Of a stretch of 47,731 bases of DNA, positions 18,396 to 27,272 are shown in pieces. The notes under the pieces were generated by a model. That model saw only the letters and a list, made by a program, of their open reading frames with translations, was not told the origin of the DNA and did no database searches. A program made the translations under genes and the position numbers. The DNA lies in NCBI GenBank assembly GCA_013001575.1, contig JABDMI010000019.1, forward strand, positions 1-47,731. Reading direction: 5' to 3'. Source of the DNA: Gammaproteobacteria bacterium. Lineage in GTDB: Bacteria; Pseudomonadota; Gammaproteobacteria; Steroidobacterales; JABDMI01. Positions within the stretch are counted from its first letter, which is position 1, and every line of letters starts with the position of its first letter.

Positions 18396-18609
18396 GAAGA
18401 GGGCTTTTGGTAAAAATGATTAAAATTCAATATATTAGCTGTGTATTTTAACCTGTTTGTATATGTGTTGCATAGCTGCTTGCCGAGATTCTGACGCTTT
18501 ATGTCACAATCCATAGCGAGATGCGTATCGGTGTTAGAATGCTCGCTTGAATAAAAACAATCGGCTGGCCATCACCAGACCTGAAATACGCATTCTGAAA
18601 AATATTCCC
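18396..18609. other. Divergent intergenic region proS / KARI-like gene
   Basis: A 214-bp region with AT-rich stretches (18420-18460). On the plus strand an extended -10-like GTGTTAGAAT (18531-18540), with GCTCGC after it, could drive the KARI-like gene; no matching -35 is clear. No leader peptide rich in Ile, Val or Leu, and no attenuator hairpin of the classical ilv type, is visible. Confidence 0.45.
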
Positions 18610-19599
18610 ATGGGTACATATTACGATAAAGACATCAGCAGCGATGCTTTGGCTGAACAGCGTATTGCCATAATTGGTTTTGGGGCGCAGGGCCGCAGCC
18701 ATGCCTTGAATTTACATGACTCGGGTGCCGATGTTGTGATTGCATTGCGAGCTGACTCACCATCCATGACGGCAGCCACGTCCATGGGTTTGACTACTCT
18801 TGAGCTTGAAGAAGCAGTGCGCACTGCAGATGTAGTAATGCTTTTGAGTCCGGACAGTTCGCATCCGGCAATTTATCAGAGCGTGTTAGAACCACACCTG
18901 CGCAGTGGATCAATGCTTTTGTTTGCGCACGGCTACAGTATTCATTATGAAACGCTAAAACCAAGAAAAGATCTGGATGTTTGCATGGTTGCCCCGTTGG
19001 GAATCGGCGATCAGGTTCGCGCCATGTACGTAGCGGGGGCAGGGGTTCCCGCCTTGTTAGCCGTGCACCAGGATTTCACCGGGCAAGCCAAACGCCGGGC
19101 TCTTGCTTATGCGGCATTGAACGGGCATGGCCGGGCCGGAATCATTGAAACTACGATTAAAGACGAAACCGAAACCGATCTGTTTGCCGAACAGGCTATT
19201 TTGTGTGGCGGCATCACGCATTTGATCGAGGCAGGTTTTGAAACCTTGGTTGAAGCAGGATACCAATCGGAACTGGCTTATTTTTCCTGTTTGCATGAGC
19301 TGAAACTGATCATTGACCTGATATATTCGCGTGGCATTGCTGGAATGCGTCAATCTATTTCGGAAACAGCGGAGTTTGGTGACTACACGCGAGGGCCGCG
19401 TGTCATCAATGAGCGTACACGAGAAGAGATGCGTGCAATGTTAAAGGAAGTGCAATCAGGTGCTTTTGCACGCGAATTATCTCAAGAAATAAACAATAAT
19501 TCGCCCGTGATCCGAAAAGGTCGTGCCGCCAGCGAGGCTCACCCGATCACAGAGGTTGGCGAACGCTTGCGCGCTATGATGCCATGGATCAAGAGCTGA
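18610..19599 (+). CDS. Ketol-acid reductoisomerase-like protein lacking key catalytic residues
   Basis: A 329-residue protein, full-length for class I KARI (IlvC) and alignable without gaps to Pseudomonas-type enzymes. The NADPH-binding part is kept (IIGFGAQGRSHALNL, then ALRADS), as are His107 (FAHGYSIHY), Asp190 and Glu194 (ETDLFAEQ), Glu230 and the SIS loop. But the universal Lys130 in APKAPGHTVR is Leu (APLGIGDQVR), and metal ligand Glu226 (AYFECLHE) is Ser (AYFSCLHE). Pro132 and His134 are also changed. Acetohydroxyacid isomeroreduction is therefore doubtful. I use the ATG at 18610, whose numbering matches the P. aeruginosa enzyme; a TTG at 18547 would add 21 residues. Psd-like and pssA genes follow. 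Confidence 0.82.
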   Translation: MGTYYDKDISSDALAEQRIAIIGFGAQGRSHALNLHDSGADVVIALRADSPSMTAATSMGLTTLELEEAVRTADVVMLLSPDSSHPAIYQSVLEPHLRSGSMLLFAHGYSIHYETLKPRKDLDVCMVAPLGIGDQVRAMYVAGAGVPALLAVHQDFTGQAKRRALAYAALNGHGRAGIIETTIKDETETDLFAEQAILCGGITHLIEAGFETLVEAGYQSELAYFSCLHELKLIIDLIYSRGIAGMRQSISETAEFGDYTRGPRVINERTREEMRAMLKEVQSGAFARELSQEINNNSPVIRKGRAASEAHPITEVGERLRAMMPWIKS

Positions 19600-19654: not shown

Positions 19655-20299
19655 ATGGCAGATGTAAAACATCCGATTTTAGCAAGTGACGGTTGGCCAT
19701 TTTTCCTTGGTGGTCTATTCGTGTTTCTGGTCGGTTTCAAATACGGATTGACCTGGTTGATGCTGTTGTGCCTTGTGTACTTTATTGCCGGTTTTTTGTT
19801 GTTCCGTGATCCTTATAGGACTATCCCCGCTATTCCTTATGCCGTCGTGAGTCCCGTCGATGGTCGGGTGATGGCTATATCGGTTCTGAAAGAGGGCTTA
19901 TTGGAACGACGTGCCATAAAATTAACCATCCGAATTTATAAATCAGGCGCCTACACCACACGCAGTCCGTGTGAAGGGAAGATCCTCAGTTTGAGTGATG
20001 TCGATCTGGGTTCGCGCAGGGTGGATACGCGTGGCTTGTGGATACGCACCGATGAAATGGATGACGTGGTCATGCAAATGCGTGGCGAGGGTGTTGCCAA
20101 ATGGTATCCGGCCGTATGTCATGTGCGTTTCGGTGAACGCATAGGACAGGGTGAACGTGTGGGCTTGAATCGCTTGGCATCAAATTGTGTGTTGTATCTG
20201 CCTGAGACCATCAAACTGGATATTGCGATTGGTCAGAGAGTTAAAGCGGGTAGTTCTATACTGGCGGAATTCGATCATGGTCAGTTCGAAGAAGAATAA
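19655..20299 (+). CDS. Phosphatidylserine decarboxylase-like protein with altered active site
   Basis: A 214-residue protein of the short Psd type. It has two N-terminal membrane helices (WPFFLGGLFVFLVGF, LMLLCLVYFIAGFLLF), FRDPYRTIP, and the catalytic Asp in SPVDGRV (Asp69). Against the short-Psd consensus, the catalytic His in VHVNR(A/S)P is replaced by Tyr100 (AYTTRSP), and the self-cleavage site FGSRVDVYLP reads LASNCVLYLP, so Gly-Ser becomes Ala-Ser. Autoprocessing to the pyruvoyl form and decarboxylation are thus doubtful. It sits 55 bp after the KARI-like gene and 29 bp before pssA, as in the ilvC-psd-pssA clusters of other proteobacteria. A separate active Psd would be expected elsewhere in the genome. 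Confidence 0.78.
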   Translation: MADVKHPILASDGWPFFLGGLFVFLVGFKYGLTWLMLLCLVYFIAGFLLFRDPYRTIPAIPYAVVSPVDGRVMAISVLKEGLLERRAIKLTIRIYKSGAYTTRSPCEGKILSLSDVDLGSRRVDTRGLWIRTDEMDDVVMQMRGEGVAKWYPAVCHVRFGERIGQGERVGLNRLASNCVLYLPETIKLDIAIGQRVKAGSSILAEFDHGQFEEE

Positions 20300-20328: not shown

Positions 20329-21207
20329 ATGAACAAAAAAATTACCCGGAAAGTAAAAAACACGGTAGCCGCCCATCGTGAAAAACGCCAATTGAATATC
20401 GAGGCTGGCGAACGGGGGCGCGGGGTTTATCTATTGCCTAATCTATTCACCACAGCCGCTTTGTTTGCGGGGTTCTATGCGGTGGTTGCCTCCATGGACG
20501 GCAATTTTGAAAAAGCCGCTTTCGCCATTTTTGTGGCCATGTTACTCGATGGTATGGATGGCCGGGTCGCGCGCATGACCAGCACCGAAACGCAATTCGG
20601 CAAAGAATACGATTCTTTATCCGACATGGTCTCATTCGGCATTGCTCCGGCGCTGGTGATGTATCAATGGGGCATTGACCACCTGGTTTCATTGAGTGGC
20701 TTCTGGAGTAAGGCCGGCTGGATCGTGGCTTTTACCTATTGCGTGTGTGCGGCATTGCGATTGGCGCGATTTAACACCAATATCGGTAAAGTGGATAAAC
20801 GCTATTTTGAGGGTTTGCCCAGCCCGTCAGCAGCCGGGGTGGTAGCGGGCCTAATTCTGTTTGATCATTCATTCGATTTCGACCCGAGCTACACCAGCTT
20901 CCCGGCGTTGATCATCACTTTTTTTGCCGGCGCTTTAATGGTCAGTAATATCAAATATCGCAGTTTTAAAGATTTAAATCTTAAAGGCAAAGTGCCATTT
21001 CACATTTTATTGCTGGTGCCTTTGATTCTTGGTCTATTGTTCATTGATCCACACAGGACTCTGTTTATCTCATTCTTTGCCTATGCCATTTCGGGACCAG
21101 TCGGACTGGTGATGCGACGCATTCGTGGTGAACAAACTGAAAATATAATTCCGGACGACATTGAAGACCCGCGCGTGGTGCCTGCCAACTATCTTGAAGA
21201 AGAATAA
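20329..21207 (+). CDS. pssA: CDP-diacylglycerol-serine O-phosphatidyltransferase
   Basis: A 292-residue integral membrane CDP-alcohol phosphatidyltransferase (subclass II PssA) that makes phosphatidylserine from CDP-DAG and serine. The complete family motif DG-x2-AR-x8-G-x3-D-x3-D is present, starting DGRVARMTST and ending GKEYDSLSD. About eight hydrophobic segments follow the basic N-terminus. The tail (GEQTENIIPDDIEDPRVVP) is polar. It follows the Psd-like gene, which has lost catalytic residues, so the product phosphatidylserine must be handled by another decarboxylase. The UDG gene begins 8 bp after its stop. Confidence 0.94.
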   Translation: MNKKITRKVKNTVAAHREKRQLNIEAGERGRGVYLLPNLFTTAALFAGFYAVVASMDGNFEKAAFAIFVAMLLDGMDGRVARMTSTETQFGKEYDSLSDMVSFGIAPALVMYQWGIDHLVSLSGFWSKAGWIVAFTYCVCAALRLARFNTNIGKVDKRYFEGLPSPSAAGVVAGLILFDHSFDFDPSYTSFPALIITFFAGALMVSNIKYRSFKDLNLKGKVPFHILLLVPLILGLLFIDPHRTLFISFFAYAISGPVGLVMRRIRGEQTENIIPDDIEDPRVVPANYLEEE

Positions 21208-21215
21208 GTTCAAAC

Positions 21216-22040
21216 ATGCCATTATCTGAAAGACAAAAACAGTATTTGGACTTGATGGGTATACCGGTCTATACAGAAAGAGCCGAAGAAGAAAAACAGG
21301 ACTTTGAGCTTCCACCGCAAGTAAAGTCAAGTCAAAAAAAATCCCCGGGTAAATCAGATGACAATCTATCGCCGGTCAATGATTCTCAAGCTCGCGAGGC
21401 GCCAACTGTTACACCAGCCGAAACTGAAACGTCGGTTTCAGTGCATGAAATTTTAAAGCGCAGTGACTTGCCCCAGGAGTGGTCAGGCTTGATCGATCAT
21501 GTCAGCAATTGTGAACGCTGCGATTTGCACAAAACCCGTACCCAAACGGTATTTGGCGTAGGTGACAGCAATGCCGACTGGATGATCATCGGGGAAGCAC
21601 CCGGTATCGAAGAAGACAAACAAGGTGAGCCATTTGTCGGTCAAGCTGGGCAACTCTTAACTGTTATTCTGGAGTCCATTGGCTTGGGGCGAGATAAGGT
21701 TTATATCGCCAACACCTTGAAATGCCGGCCGCCTGGTAATCGTGATCCAAAAAAATCCGAAGCGGCTCAGTGTCGAGCATATCTGGAACAGCAGATTGCC
21801 CTGGTTGACCCAAAGATCATTATTTGCGTGGGGCGTATTGCCAGTCAAAATGTTTTGCAAGTCGAGGATCCTATTTCCCGCATGCGGGGTAAACCGCACA
21901 GTATTCAGCATCCTGTCAAACTTGAGAAAGATATTCCGGTCATTGTGACGTACCATCCGGCCTACTTGTTAAGAAGTCCGAGTCAGAAACGCAAAGTATG
22001 GGACGATCTGAAACTTGCATTTTCAGTATTAAAAGCCTGA
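21216..22040 (+). CDS. Family 4-type uracil-DNA glycosylase (iron-sulfur)
   Basis: A 274-residue DNA repair enzyme that removes uracil from DNA. A low-complexity Ser/Pro/Glu-rich linker (about residues 25-85) joins a short N-terminal segment ([19 protein letters not shown]) to the catalytic domain. Motif 1 is [20 protein letters not shown]; cluster Cys residues are in [24 protein letters not shown] and EAAQCRAYL; motif 3 is [18 protein letters not shown]. The position directly upstream of rimI (3 bp) is common in gammaproteobacteria. The linker makes it longer than the roughly 200-residue thermophile enzymes. Confidence 0.93.
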
Positions 22041-22043
22041 TCC

Positions 22044-22490
22044 ATGCCCGTTAGCTTACGCAGGATGCAGGAAAGCGATCTCGATCAGGTGCTTGCAATT
22101 GAGACTCAAAGCTATCCGGTACCCTGGACCCGCGGCATTTTTTCCGATTGTTTGAAAGTCGGCTATCCGGCCTGGGTGCTGTTGGATGGCGAAACCATCA
22201 TCGGTTATATACTCATCTCGGTTGGCGCCAATGAAGCCCATCTTTTGAATATCTGTATCGCGCCCGCTCAGCGTCGTAAAGGTTTGGCCAGAAAGTTGTT
22301 GTCCGACATGATAAATTTATTGCAAGAAAAACATGTCGATACTTTGTTTTTAGAGGTGCGTGTTAGCAGTAAACCGGCCATTGCCTTGTATGAGGCTATG
22401 GGCTTTGAGCAAATTGGTCTAAGAAAAGATTATTACAAGACTCAAAGCGGGAAAGAAGATGCAGTGACGTATAAGATGGATTTATCTTGA
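22044..22490 (+). CDS. rimI: Ribosomal protein bS18-alanine N-acetyltransferase
   Basis: A 148-residue GNAT acetyltransferase that acetylates the N-terminal Ala of ribosomal protein S18. Features are the N-terminal LRRMQESDLDQVLAIETQSYPVPWTRGIF, the acetyl-CoA pyrophosphate loop IAPAQRRKGLARKLL, and VRVSSKPAIALYEAMGFEQIGLRKDYY near the end. It lies 3 bp after the uracil-DNA glycosylase stop and is surely cotranscribed with it. Confidence 0.95.
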   Translation: MPVSLRRMQESDLDQVLAIETQSYPVPWTRGIFSDCLKVGYPAWVLLDGETIIGYILISVGANEAHLLNICIAPAQRRKGLARKLLSDMINLLQEKHVDTLFLEVRVSSKPAIALYEAMGFEQIGLRKDYYKTQSGKEDAVTYKMDLS

Positions 22491-22505: not shown

Positions 22506-23075
22506 ATGAGCTATGGTGTGATGGCCTATCTTGTTGATACGGATGAATTGTTTAGTCTTTTGAGAAAAGAAAAAAAGCGCGGGTTTTTAAGTTCTGTTTT
22601 TGGTAAAAAAAGTGAACAGGAGAAGATGATAGAAGCGCTTAAGCCCGAGCTGGATGACCTGGATGAGAGTATTCAGGAATGGCTGGATGAAGACGATGAA
22701 AATTTCGACGTCCCGATTGCAAGAAAAGTAATTGATGAGTTCCTGACTGACAATATCAGTAATGCCTACGAAGGTCATGTCTATGGCTATGTTTTCAAGA
22801 ATATTTGTGAGTACAAGGGAGACTTTCTGGATAATTCTGAATGGTATCCGTGTTCAATCGACAGCTTTTATGCCATTCCATTTACTGAAATGACATTACC
22901 GGTCAAATTTCCTCACCCGGATGACTGGCCAGCACTTGGCTACATTAGTCATACTAAAATAGACTTGGAAAATGCCGAATATGAAGGCATAGATGAAATC
23001 CAGAAAGAGCGCTTGATCGACTGGTTCACGCGAGCAAAACATACTCAAAAAGATATTTATCTGTTTATGCATTAG
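22506..23075 (+). CDS. Hypothetical protein, possibly DUF7691-type
   Basis: A 189-residue acidic soluble protein that I cannot assign a function. The start (MSYGVMAYLVDTDELFSLLRKEK) is reminiscent of the DUF7691 family of small proteins with MSYG-type starts; the match is from memory and weak. It has no signal peptide, membrane segment or recognisable catalytic motif; Trp, Tyr and acidic residues are frequent. A strong ribosome binding site (AGAGGA) precedes the ATG, 15 bp after rimI. Base composition is more AT-rich than its neighbours, which may mean it was acquired. It converges on the CotH-like gene. Confidence 0.7.
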   Translation: MSYGVMAYLVDTDELFSLLRKEKKRGFLSSVFGKKSEQEKMIEALKPELDDLDESIQEWLDEDDENFDVPIARKVIDEFLTDNISNAYEGHVYGYVFKNICEYKGDFLDNSEWYPCSIDSFYAIPFTEMTLPVKFPHPDDWPALGYISHTKIDLENAEYEGIDEIQKERLIDWFTRAKHTQKDIYLFMH

Positions 23076-23102: not shown

Positions 23103-24116
23103 TTATAAACAGCGTTTTTGAAAATCCGCCATCAGCTTTTGTTCATTAGCCGCCTCCTGAAAAAAACGGTTCACATATTTTTCTGTTTCCAGTCGTGCAG
23201 TGTCTGACAGACCGGGCACATCTTTAATTATTTTTACTATATTGCTTTGTGTCGATCTGATTTGGTCCAGGGCAACTTGTAGTTTATTAGAAGATTGACA
23301 GAACCCGCGATACAAGCGCTGGGTAACGCGTCTGATGCGTAAGGACTTATCCGGAAACGCATAGCGGGCATTCACTAGTCCGGAAAGGTCAAAATCATAA
23401 GGTACGTAAAAGCGTTCTTGGTTGATGTTGATTAAGGTTCCGTTGTGACAACATACGGTATCTTTTTCCGCCGACACCAATGACCAATCAGTATTGCCAA
23501 TCAGATATTGATAGATATAAATCTTTGCCATGTGCGCATCATTGAGGGAGCGCAATGACACGCCCTGTGCCGCGACCGGTTGAGCGCCTAAACGCTTGAT
23601 CATGTCGAGCCTGGGTTCAATCAAAAACGCATAGCGCACCAATGACTGAGAGTTTTTTTTGGCTAGCGTGTCTACATATGTGATACGCGCCAGACGTACC
23701 TGATAACTGACGTCGGTGATTTGGTTGAGTATTTTGTACGCCAGATATTCCTGAATGGCATTTTCCTGATACGCAGATGTGAGTTTGCAATGGGTGACGA
23801 TCTTAACCTTGTCCATTCCGGAAAATACACTACCACGTGCGTGCTGTTGATTGAATTGCAAACGGAGCGGGGGGAAGCGACAAACTCTGAGCCGGCTATT
23901 GCCTCGCGCACGCACGAGCACTTCTTGGCGGTGACCATTTACCTCTAAAACAAAACGCGACGGGGTTTTTTGTTTTTTGGCGCGTATCACACGGCTGACC
24001 GGACCTTCCAGTTTTATCTCTAATACCGAGTCGCTCTCAAATAATTGTGCGGAAACTGTTTGCATCACAATCAGTGATACAAGCAATAGCAACATTTTGG
24101 ATAATCCTAGGTTCAT
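23103..24116 (-). CDS. Exported CotH-like (kinase-fold) protein
   Basis: A 337-residue protein with a signal peptide (MNLGLSKMLLLLVSLIVMQTVSA, cleaved before Gln24). The body resembles CotH-type atypical kinases in pattern: an early VRARGNSRLRVCRFPPLRLQF (CotH-like RGNSS...KPY/RLKF), YQENAIQEYLAYKILNQITDVSY, a central GNTDWSL, then CHNG and YVPYDFDLSGLVNARYA, where the two Asp residues could bind metal-ATP as in CotH. Four or more Cys residues suggest disulfides in the periplasm. The ATG at 24116 is used; a TTG ten codons earlier would spoil the signal peptide. Function unknown; CotH phosphorylates proteins, but an exported enzyme would need an ATP source. Confidence 0.6.
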   Translation of the reverse strand: MNLGLSKMLLLLVSLIVMQTVSAQLFESDSVLEIKLEGPVSRVIRAKKQKTPSRFVLEVNGHRQEVLVRARGNSRLRVCRFPPLRLQFNQQHARGSVFSGMDKVKIVTHCKLTSAYQENAIQEYLAYKILNQITDVSYQVRLARITYVDTLAKKNSQSLVRYAFLIEPRLDMIKRLGAQPVAAQGVSLRSLNDAHMAKIYIYQYLIGNTDWSLVSAEKDTVCCHNGTLININQERFYVPYDFDLSGLVNARYAFPDKSLRIRRVTQRLYRGFCQSSNKLQVALDQIRSTQSNIVKIIKDVPGLSDTARLETEKYVNRFFQEAANEQKLMADFQKRCL

Positions 24117-24233
24117 TTTGTGGCTTTTATTGCGTCCGTTTTGCAAAGATACTAGGTATTCACATTACTTGATATAGGGGATGACCACAAATTGCCATTC
24201 AAAAACTTTCACTTTCTACTGTAAAATCAAGGC

Positions 24234-27200
24234 ATGGGCGACTATTCCACCAGCAAAATATACGATCAACATGCGGCTGAGATTCTTTCGGATCTCTACG
24301 GCATTCAGGCGCTTGCAAGTCCGGTGCACGGTGAAATTGATTTCAATTTTTGCATCGAGATAGATGGACGGGCAAAATATTTATTAAAAATTTCACGAGC
24401 CGGCGTTGATAAAGACTATCTTGATCTGCAAAATCAAATATTGCTCACACTCAGTCAAGACCCGGAATTGAACGCGTCGCAAGTAGTTAAGGATGTGAAC
24501 GGTCAAGCGATTTCAGAGTTTACCGATGAGAATGAACAAATTCGCTACGTCCGGCTGCTTACCTGGATTGAAGGTCGTTTGTGGCATACGGTCAATCCTC
24601 AACTCGATGCACTCAGGTATGAGCTCGGATACAAGTCCGGATTGATCACTAAAACCCTGTTGGATTTTGATCATCCAAAGGCGCACAGGGAACTGGATTG
24701 GGATGTGGCCCAGTCACTCTGGACAAAAGAGCATACGGATTTATTTTCCGGCGAAGAGAAGCGCATTATTGAAAGTTTCATCGGTCGGTTTGAAACGGTG
24801 CAAAAGTCCTATCAGGGCTTGCGAAAGTCTGTGGTGCACAATGATGTGAATGAGGGCAATATTGTTGTGAGTCTGGATGTCCTCAAGCCACAGGTTTTGT
24901 CAATATTTGATTTTGGCGATGCGCTGCATACCCAGGTGATTAACGATGTGGCTATCGCTTGCTCTTACGCCATTAAAGACTTTCCGGATCCACTCGCGGC
25001 TGCTTTGCCACTGCTTAAGGGCTATCATCACGCATTTGCCTTACAGGAACAAGAATTAGACTATTTATATCTGTTGATTGCCATGCGCTTGATCGTGTCG
25101 ATCACCAAGGCCGCAATCAATCGTGTGGCGGAACCCGAGAATGAGTATTTGCAGGTTAGTAAACAAACGGCAATTGATTTGCTTTTAAAGTGGGATGCGA
25201 TTGACCAGGAATTTGCGACTTACCGTTTTCGCGATGCCTGTGGATTTTCTGCTCATCCTGATCAAGCACGGTTTGTTGAATGGGCGAAACAATCAAAATT
25301 CTCTTTATCGGACCTGTATCCAACAGTGTTACGCAATCAAATACATCCCCTGGAACTCAATGTGGCCAGCACTTGGTTGGGTCACGTTACAGACTTCAAT
25401 GATCTGGAGCTGTTTGATTTCAAAATACATAAATTACAAAAACAACATCCAGACAAAATCATTGCAGGCGGTTACCTTGAGCCGCGTGCTCTATACATCG
25501 CGCCAGAATACGACAGTGTGGGTAACAGCGGGCGGCGTAGTCGTACTGTGCATCTGGGGGTGGATTATTGGTTGCCTGCTTACACATCGGTGCATGCCGT
25601 TCTGGATGGTGAAGTCGTTGCAGCGGTGGATAATTCGGGCGATAAGCAATATGGCGGATTGCTTATTCTGAAACACACGATCGAAGACCAGCATGGCGAG
25701 TTCAGTTTTTTTTCCTTGTATGGTCATCTAACAGTTTCATCCGCCACCCAGCACACGATCGGTGACCAGATCAAACAGGGCGAATGCATCGCGCGCCTGG
25801 GTTCTTATCCGGAAAATGGCAACTGGTCTCCACATCTGCATTTTCAGTTAATGTTAAGTATGCTGGACTATGTTAACGATTTTGCCGGTGTTGCTTATCC
25901 GGAGGAAGTCGGGGTCTGGGCGAGTATTTGTCCTGACCCGAATTTGCTTTTCAAATGTGACGGGCTTGAGCCAAATCAAAAAACAAATCAGGAATTGCTT
26001 GAGTTTAGACAACAACATCTGGGCAAAGGCTTGAGTCTGTCTTATAAGACGCCACTGAACATTGTACGTGGAGCTGCTCAGTATCTGATTGATGATCAGG
26101 GCCGCAAATTTCTGGATACGGTGAATAACGTTGCACACGTCGGACACGAACACCCGGATGTGGTCAAGGCCGGTCAACAACAAATGGCGGTACTCAATAC
26201 CAATTCACGTTATTTGCACCCAAACATCAATGAGCTGGCCAGTGAGTTACTTGAGACCTTACCCGATGAATTATGTGTGGTGCATTTTGTGAATTCAGGC
26301 AGCGAGGCCAATGAACTGGCCATACGGATGTTGAAAACTGCAACCGGACGTCAAGACATCCTTGTTTCAGAAGTTGGATATCACGGGAACACGAATGCCG
26401 CCATCAATATCAGTTCCTATAAGTTTGACGGAAAGGGTGGCAGTGGCGCGCCGCAATATACCCATGTATTCCCGTTGCCGGATGCGTTTCGTGGCAAGTA
26501 TCGCGGTGACAACAGCGGTTTTCGCTATGCCTATGAGGTAGAAACCTGTATTTCGCATGTGCATGCCGAGGGACGTCATGTAGCTGGCATGATAATTGAA
26601 CCGATCATCAGTTGTGGCGGTCAGATCGTGCCTCCGGAGGGCTTTTTGCAACAGGCTTTTACTTATGTACGAGAAGCGGGTGGCTATTGCGTGGCGGATG
26701 AAGTGCAAGTTGGTTGCGGTCGCGTGGGTAAACATTTCTGGGGTTTTGAGTTGCACGATGTGATCCCGGATATCGTCACCATTGGCAAGCCTTTGGGTAA
26801 TGGGCATCCGGTTGCCGCGGTTGTTTGTACCCGGGAGATAGCCGACAAGTTTGCCAATGGCATGGAATACTTTAATACTTTTGGCGGCAATCCGGTTTCA
26901 TGTGCCATCGCCAGCGAAGTCTTGCGTGTGGTCAAGCGTGAGAATTTACAAACGCACGCAAATACTATCGGCGCATTGCTTAAACAGAAGTTGCAAATCC
27001 TTTCTAAACAATTTCCAATCATTGGTGATGTGCGTGGCGAAGGACTGTTTTTAGGCTTTGAGCTGGTTGATGCAGCGTTAAAGCCCTTGCCTTTACAAAC
27101 CGATTACCTGATCAATCGCATGAAAGCCCATAGTATATTAATGAGCAGCGATGGACCGGATCATAATGTCATCAAAATTAAACCGCCACTGGTGTTCTCT

Positions 27201-27272
27201 GAAAAAGATGTTGATGAACTGCTGGATACCCTGGAAAAAGTTTTCAGTGAAGATGTTTTGCAGGTTTATTAA
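24234..27272 (+). CDS. Three-domain fusion: APH-type kinase, M23-like domain, class III aminotransferase/phospho-lyase
   Basis: A 1012-residue cytoplasmic protein. Residues about 1-340 are an APH/hydroxylysine-kinase-like kinase (HND 202-204 in VVHNDVNEGNIVV; metal Asp226 in IFDFGD). About 415-570 is an M23/LytM-like domain with the zinc ligands of active M23 peptidases in place (HLGVD 440-444; HLH 534-536). About 590-1012 is a fold-type I PLP enzyme with Lys852 in IGKPLGNGHPVA, the signature of human ETNPPL/PHYKPL phospho-lyases. Kinase plus phospho-lyase suggests phosphorylation of a hydroxy-amine and elimination of phosphate to aldehyde and ammonia. No signal peptide. This architecture recurs in bacteria. 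The substrate and the M23 role are unknown. Confidence 0.88.
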   Translation: MGDYSTSKIYDQHAAEILSDLYGIQALASPVHGEIDFNFCIEIDGRAKYLLKISRAGVDKDYLDLQNQILLTLSQDPELNASQVVKDVNGQAISEFTDENEQIRYVRLLTWIEGRLWHTVNPQLDALRYELGYKSGLITKTLLDFDHPKAHRELDWDVAQSLWTKEHTDLFSGEEKRIIESFIGRFETVQKSYQGLRKSVVHNDVNEGNIVVSLDVLKPQVLSIFDFGDALHTQVINDVAIACSYAIKDFPDPLAAALPLLKGYHHAFALQEQELDYLYLLIAMRLIVSITKAAINRVAEPENEYLQVSKQTAIDLLLKWDAIDQEFATYRFRDACGFSAHPDQARFVEWAKQSKFSLSDLYPTVLRNQIHPLELNVASTWLGHVTDFNDLELFDFKIHKLQKQHPDKIIAGGYLEPRALYIAPEYDSVGNSGRRSRTVHLGVDYWLPAYTSVHAVLDGEVVAAVDNSGDKQYGGLLILKHTIEDQHGEFSFFSLYGHLTVSSATQHTIGDQIKQGECIARLGSYPENGNWSPHLHFQLMLSMLDYVNDFAGVAYPEEVGVWASICPDPNLLFKCDGLEPNQKTNQELLEFRQQHLGKGLSLSYKTPLNIVRGAAQYLIDDQGRKFLDTVNNVAHVGHEHPDVVKAGQQQMAVLNTNSRYLHPNINELASELLETLPDELCVVHFVNSGSEANELAIRMLKTATGRQDILVSEVGYHGNTNAAINISSYKFDGKGGSGAPQYTHVFPLPDAFRGKYRGDNSGFRYAYEVETCISHVHAEGRHVAGMIIEPIISCGGQIVPPEGFLQQAFTYVREAGGYCVADEVQVGCGRVGKHFWGFELHDVIPDIVTIGKPLGNGHPVAAVVCTREIADKFANGMEYFNTFGGNPVSCAIASEVLRVVKRENLQTHANTIGALLKQKLQILSKQFPIIGDVRGEGLFLGFELVDAALKPLPLQTDYLINRMKAHSILMSSDGPDHNVIKIKPPLVFSEKDVDELLDTLEKVFSEDVLQVY

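Follow-up and report, generated by a model that had tools for sequence, protein, structure and literature searches.

Between ilvC and pssA in the window, that is, the whole 47,731-nt stretch of DNA analysed here, lies a gene for a protein that resembles a phosphatidylserine decarboxylase (Psd) with replaced catalytic residues, which raises the question of what such a protein does. The gene, named psdL here (positions 19655–20299, forward strand), starts with ATG and encodes a degenerate homologue of the short-type Psds of 214 aa. PsdL matched PF02666 with an E-value of 3.7e-12 and 46.8 bits, above the Pfam cut-off of 22, so that family-level searches flag such genes as Psd. Its top NCBIfam model was NF003680 (short Psd; E 1e-31), and the curated models nearest to it were those of the short-type Psds of the PRK05305 group. 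However, PsdL scored far below all Psd equivalog cut-offs, the best being 109.9 vs. 262 bits for NF003680, a cut-off that was passed by the canonical short Psds of loci L149 and L185 with 318.2 and 324.8 bits, respectively. A PADLOC search gave no match.

PsdL shares with the short-type Psds (PRK05305/NF003680) its homology, the ilvC-psd-pssA slot, the N-terminal helices and the FRDP and SPxDG motifs. As the initial annotation had described, Asp69 (19859–19861), the equivalent of the triad Asp, and the FRDP motif common to canonical short Psds (residues 50–53, 19802–19813) are kept, and so are the membrane helices, the AlphaFold2 model and hydropathy placing the first at residues 11–29 (19685–19741) and the second at residues 33–49 (19751–19801). 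In contrast to the short-type Psds, the catalytic His is replaced by Tyr100 (19952–19954) and the former Gly-Ser cleavage site reads Ala175-Ser176 (20177–20182), both as described, while the corresponding columns are H, G, and S in all 44 distinct canonical short Psds, comprising 20 from the class and 25 from a phylum draw with one gene shared.

Of 59 genomes from the same order, 16, counting the window's own, gave matches to PsdL. Because Tyr100 does not vary among the 16 sequences aligned from this order (window included, one partial second match, L019, left out), chance can be excluded for this residue as judged from the alignment, and its conservation in close relatives, which the initial annotation had proposed to check, is borne out. 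A scan of genome contigs with the single PsdL protein gave no relative, and an alignment query gave 171. From these the best 80 were retained; the named relatives among these best 80 of 171 were all Gammaproteobacteria, including Woeseiaceae and Ectothiorhodospiraceae. In a class survey of 369 genomes of Gammaproteobacteria, for which an alignment of same-order Y-form sequences served as the query, matches occurred in 124 genomes, and the 125 scored loci comprised 100 degenerate ones, 22 with the canonical His and Gly-Ser, and 3 partial ones. Counted by genome, a degenerate copy was present in 100 and a canonical short Psd in 20 of the 369, a two-by-two table that excludes the 3 partial loci and 2 canonical-motif second paralogues (G208 and G413). 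By their group codes, the carriers of the degenerate form fall into 70 genera and 52 families.

The origin of the degenerate form was examined in a tree of 144 sequences from which the catalytic columns had been removed, obtained by a quick search with long branches and no bootstrap. Its 100 degenerate rows differ from the 100 survey loci, as L136, L139, L220 and rows shorter than 150 residues were taken out and the window protein and six same-order relatives were added, and the canonical row G378 stands in it twice, from the class and the phylum draw. All 100 degenerate rows formed one clade (SH-aLRT 100), requiring one change vs. a shuffled mean of 37.6, and this clade nested among the canonical short Psds. 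Because the degenerate rows form one clade in that position, catalysis was probably lost once, in the ancestor of a large gammaproteobacterial clade, and the pseudoenzyme-family test found a single origin within the canonical short Psd family. In a Fitch parsimony reconstruction, the clade's root node carried Asp at position 69 and Tyr at position 100, with Ser176 unsettled there; on the whole tree, the H100 state changed 3 times and the S176 state 13 times. Taken together, the substitutions first noticed in one protein are confirmed and appear to define an ancient clade rather than a single odd protein.

Within this clade, the catalytic His was almost entirely missing, being H in 20/20 canonical but only 2/100 degenerate rows, and its replacements were mostly aromatic (Tyr 60 and Phe 26 of 100). 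The Gly-Ser site was likewise not conserved, as GS was read in 12 of 100 degenerate rows of the tree, none of which has the His, and a KASxxNE loop found in 19/19 canonical class tree rows and, with the same pattern, in 16/25 phylum rows was gone from all 100 degenerate rows. Ser176 was correctly described as present in the window protein, but it is not a conserved survivor: position 176 was Ala in 25, Gly in 25, Arg in 23 and Ser in only 17 of the 100 degenerate loci, and Asp in the two same-genus relatives. Ser176 in the window protein is thus incidental and not selected for.

When canonical short Psds were aligned by HMM with the type I Psd encoded in the window's genome, FNVH paired with FNYH and GS with GS, the template for the His position being a single own-genome type I Psd sequence. 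By this pairing, Tyr100 could therefore be tied to the His144 position of E. coli Psd, where the corresponding E. coli motif lies. His144 is reported to be essential in the E. coli enzyme, as H144A and H144N abolish the decarboxylase activity, while slow self-cleavage persists in H144A/N and in G253A, at about 70% for the latter (PMC7952604). The initial annotation had suggested that PsdL neither cleaves itself nor decarboxylates. The essential His144 and a type I Psd encoded elsewhere in the genome support the second half of this suggestion, and PsdL very probably has no decarboxylase activity; the first half was too strong, because the E. coli H144A/N and G253A proteins still cleave slowly and the two substitutions alone therefore do not prove non-cleavage.

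That a canonical psd should be sought elsewhere in the genome had also been proposed, and a type I Psd was indeed found on contig C29 (223.3 bits vs. the cut-off of 111.75). The type I Psds (TIGR00163; E. coli structures PDB 6L06 and 7CNW–7CNZ) belong to the PF02666 superfamily as PsdL does, but they carry the full Asp-His-Ser triad and the Gly-Ser site and make phosphatidylethanolamine (PE), whereas PsdL is without the His and Gly-Ser. TIGR00163 matched 319 of the 369 class genomes, and a type I Psd was present in 95/100 degenerate genomes vs. 0/20 short-canonical genomes, the absences being partly inferred; the Fisher p of 1.8e-18 for this co-occurrence is descriptive, as it treats genomes as independent while the degenerate form arose once. 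The decarboxylase role thus appears to fall to the unlinked type I Psd, with which PsdL coexists. Outside the class both kinds can coexist as well, since G537 and G549 each gave a short match together with a weaker, longer one. The type I Psd genomes of the class are mostly without a detected psdL, and the psdL function therefore appears dispensable.

For five degenerate genomes (G144, G247, G273, G297, and G371), no match to a type I Psd was obtained at E ≤ 10, and such a replacement leaves them unexplained; G267, a congener of one of the five, likewise gave none at this threshold. These five, and the slow cleavage that the E. coli mutants retain, would be compatible with a PsdL that still works as a decarboxylase using substitute residues. 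That reading is nevertheless very improbable, as His144 is essential for decarboxylation in E. coli, the Ser nucleophile is missing in 83 of the 100 degenerate sequences, a type I Psd accompanies most degenerate copies including that of the window, and three of these five genomes have lost Asp69 as well, with Arg in its place in G144 and Gln in both G273 and G371. Two genera were without a type I Psd match in both sampled members.

The neighbourhood was found to be common to active and degenerate copies. In the window, ilvC (ketol-acid reductoisomerase, 18547–19599) precedes psdL with a gap of 55 bp; pssA (type II CDP-diacylglycerol-serine O-phosphatidyltransferase, 20329–21207) follows it after 29 bp and is the sole PssA found in its own genome at E 1e-15; a gene of the uracil-DNA glycosylase superfamily (UDG, 21216–22040) comes 8 bp after pssA, and an open reading frame (22044–22490) that we take to encode a RimI-like acetyltransferase 3 bp after the UDG gene, all on the forward strand. 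Among the degenerate loci, ilvC lay upstream on the same strand in 96/100 and pssA downstream in 96/100, and at the short-canonical loci in 18/20 and 16/20, respectively; degenerate and canonical copies occupy the same slot, ilvC-psd-pssA. On the evidence of the sequences, PsdL descends from the housekeeping short Psd of ilvC-psd-pssA. Among the named contigs, again the best 80 of 171, 38 showed an adjoining pssA, some contigs ending early. Since a promoter/terminator scan found fewer sites than in shuffles, it is the spacing of the genes from which transcription as one operon is inferred.

Apparent IlvC-PsdL fusions at L152, L175, and L176 (open frames of 568–577 aa) were rejected, as ilvC read in the wrong frame makes up their N-terminal part, which gave no IlvC match by blastp. 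At L222 (G208) and L223 (G413), the second Psd-like paralogue carries the His and an LLGS site, and no match to ilvC or pssA was found in the stretches around these two paralogues.

At the Woeseia locus L088 (3989–5846), psdL-udg-rimI is kept beside proS, while ilvC and pssA are gone from the cluster. Adjacency to pssA is not needed for the retention of psdL, and the gene is therefore retained for its own sake. Across 12 distinct degenerate pairs, dN/dS ranged over 0.04–0.23, and the canonical pair L204/L207 gave 0.13 (the list has 14 rows, L004/L005 being a duplicate of L020/L021); the degenerate family is under purifying selection after the loss of its active site. A decaying relic that is retained through operon linkage could account for the fast evolution of PsdL (mean distance 1.3, vs. 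0.57 for PssA and 0.32 for IlvC) and for the one in-frame TAG flagged among 17 relative matches, in that of G022, but hardly for the low dN/dS, the spread over so many families and genera, the near-invariant residues described below, or the persistence of psdL in Woeseia after both flanking genes had left, and we consider it the least probable of all the explanations. Judged from selection, synteny and the new near-invariant residues, PsdL probably has a selected role other than Psd catalysis.

A link with the preceding biosynthetic step was sought by mirror-tree comparison. In 90 loci, the partial correlation of PsdL with PssA given IlvC was 0.44 (0/500 permutations; phylogeny uncorrected), and that of PsdL with IlvC given PssA was 0.04. 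UDG, examined as partial segments longer than 110 residues, made a fair control because its mean divergence was similar to that of PssA in that set of 69 loci, where the PsdL-PssA value was 0.46 vs. 0.13 for PsdL-UDG with shared ancestry not removed. TIGR00473 (PssA) matched in 363/369 genomes, so that the presence of PssA is non-discriminating. Synteny and the mirror-tree signal thus support a putative coupling of PsdL to PssA, and the usual position of psdL beside the gene whose product acts one step earlier points to a possible non-catalytic function in the synthesis of membrane lipids. It is on balance probable that PsdL is a pseudoenzyme recruited to a non-catalytic accessory role in PS/PE synthesis, near the PS synthase; that PssA itself is its partner is a narrower proposal, for which the case is somewhat short of even.

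The AlphaFold2 model of PsdL (mean pLDDT 88.5, pTM 0.84) combines the two N-terminal helices with a domain rich in beta strands, and an N-terminal hydrophobic stretch (17-residue hydropathy >1.6) occurred in 99/99 degenerate tree rows that have an N-terminus. The top solved neighbours of the model were IIAGlc structures (VIA-align Z 12.4–12.5, rmsd 3.1–4.3 over 125–141 residues), followed by LytM domains (Z ~8–9), with E. coli Psd lower (Z 7.2–8.0; the beta chain 6l06_A gave Z 7.2 and rmsd 2.4 over 115 residues). A single-sequence PDB search with PsdL found nothing, and a PDB profile search gave weak matches only, which ended before the His position. The Psd alignments ended at model residue 174, beside the former cleavage site, which agrees with an uncut single chain in the predicted model and says nothing on function.

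IIAGlc and the degenerate LytM factors (EnvC) are non-catalytic regulators with other partners. Their modelled barrel fold is similar to that of PsdL, while their sequence relationship to it amounts to weak profile matches at most. PsdL might accordingly be imagined as an envelope regulator of the same fold that is unrelated to PS, a role that would suit both the ranking of the structural neighbours above Psd and the retention of psdL in Woeseia without adjoining ilvC and pssA. We regard this as improbable, as a common fold shows no function, the Psd scores are lowered because the solved Psd chains are cleaved, and the PsdL-PssA signal exceeds the PsdL-UDG signal.

The degenerate family also has near-invariant residues of its own, which are much less frequent in the canonical one. 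Glu107 (19973–19975) was found in 99/100 degenerate vs. 3/20 canonical sequences; in the DExDD hairpin (residues 133–137, 20051–20065), D133 was in 100/100 vs. 10/20, E134 in 100/100 vs. 6/20 and D136 in 97/100 vs. 4/20; in GERxGQG (residues 160–166, 20132–20152), R162 was in 100/100 vs. 8/20, with G164 in 98 and Q165 in 93 of the degenerate sequences; and His208 (20276–20278) was in 85/100 vs. 2/20. The degenerate set was gathered with a Y-form profile, so these invariance figures are somewhat overstated. If PsdL had kept its fold but come to catalyse or sense something else, with the hairpin together with E107, R162, and H208 forming a new active or ligand site, this could explain why four of these residues are universal or nearly so, and D69 (89/100) and R103 (82/100) are largely kept as well. 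Such a site is unlikely, though less so than the envelope role, because parts of the acidic motif already occur in a few canonical relatives, e.g., TDEKDD in L149, so that the residues may be clade signatures, and because the Y-form collection inflates their invariance.

The accessory role in PS synthesis could come about as follows. With the catalytic His lost about once, the Ser nucleophile not conserved and decarboxylation covered by the type I Psd, PsdL would most likely persist as an unprocessed single-chain Psd fold in the inner membrane that binds phosphatidylserine and/or PssA, and, so placed, it may adjust the output of PssA or hand PS to the distant type I Psd. In its most specific form, a dead Psd would, on a single occasion, have been turned into a regulator devoted to PS synthesis, in which a conserved acidic/arginine site newly formed by E107, D133-E134-D136, R162, and H208 reads PS or contacts PssA; this we offer tentatively, as one possibility that is rather doubtful in its detail. 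The initial annotation had suggested that PsdL may bind membranes or phosphatidylserine without cleaving; membrane binding is plausible, and for lipid binding there is a precedent by analogy, as the uncleavable S308A proenzyme of Plasmodium knowlesi PSD is reported to bind PS and PG liposomes with Kd values of 80.4 and 66.4 nM, respectively (PMC10172927). That unprocessed protein was made by mutating an active enzyme, whereas PsdL, a putative unprocessed Psd chain, represents a natural family.

The open-access literature gave no description of a pseudoenzyme in the Psd family. Pseudoenzymes themselves are known, and what is described here is a pseudoenzyme clade within a well-known enzyme family. 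PE ranks among the main lipids of bacteria, and to our knowledge the balance between the PssA and Psd steps is not settled; a non-catalytic Psd relative beside pssA offers a concrete, deletable candidate for the control of that balance. If PsdL does regulate PS synthesis, it would constitute an unrecognised layer of control on phosphatidylethanolamine production in about a quarter (100/369) of the sampled class genomes.

Several further genes lie downstream in the window. A DUF7691 protein is encoded directly after the RimI-like gene (22506–23075, forward strand), followed by an open reading frame of ~346 aa on the reverse strand (23103–24146) that gave no Pfam match at 1e-5. Next, a 1012-aa protein (24234–27272, forward strand) combines APH-type kinase, M23 (LytM) and class III aminotransferase domains; it resembles a fusion of ethanolamine kinase with phosphoethanolamine phospho-lyase and may carry out PE-breakdown chemistry, and this candidate PE-breakdown fusion gene lies ~3 kb from pssA.
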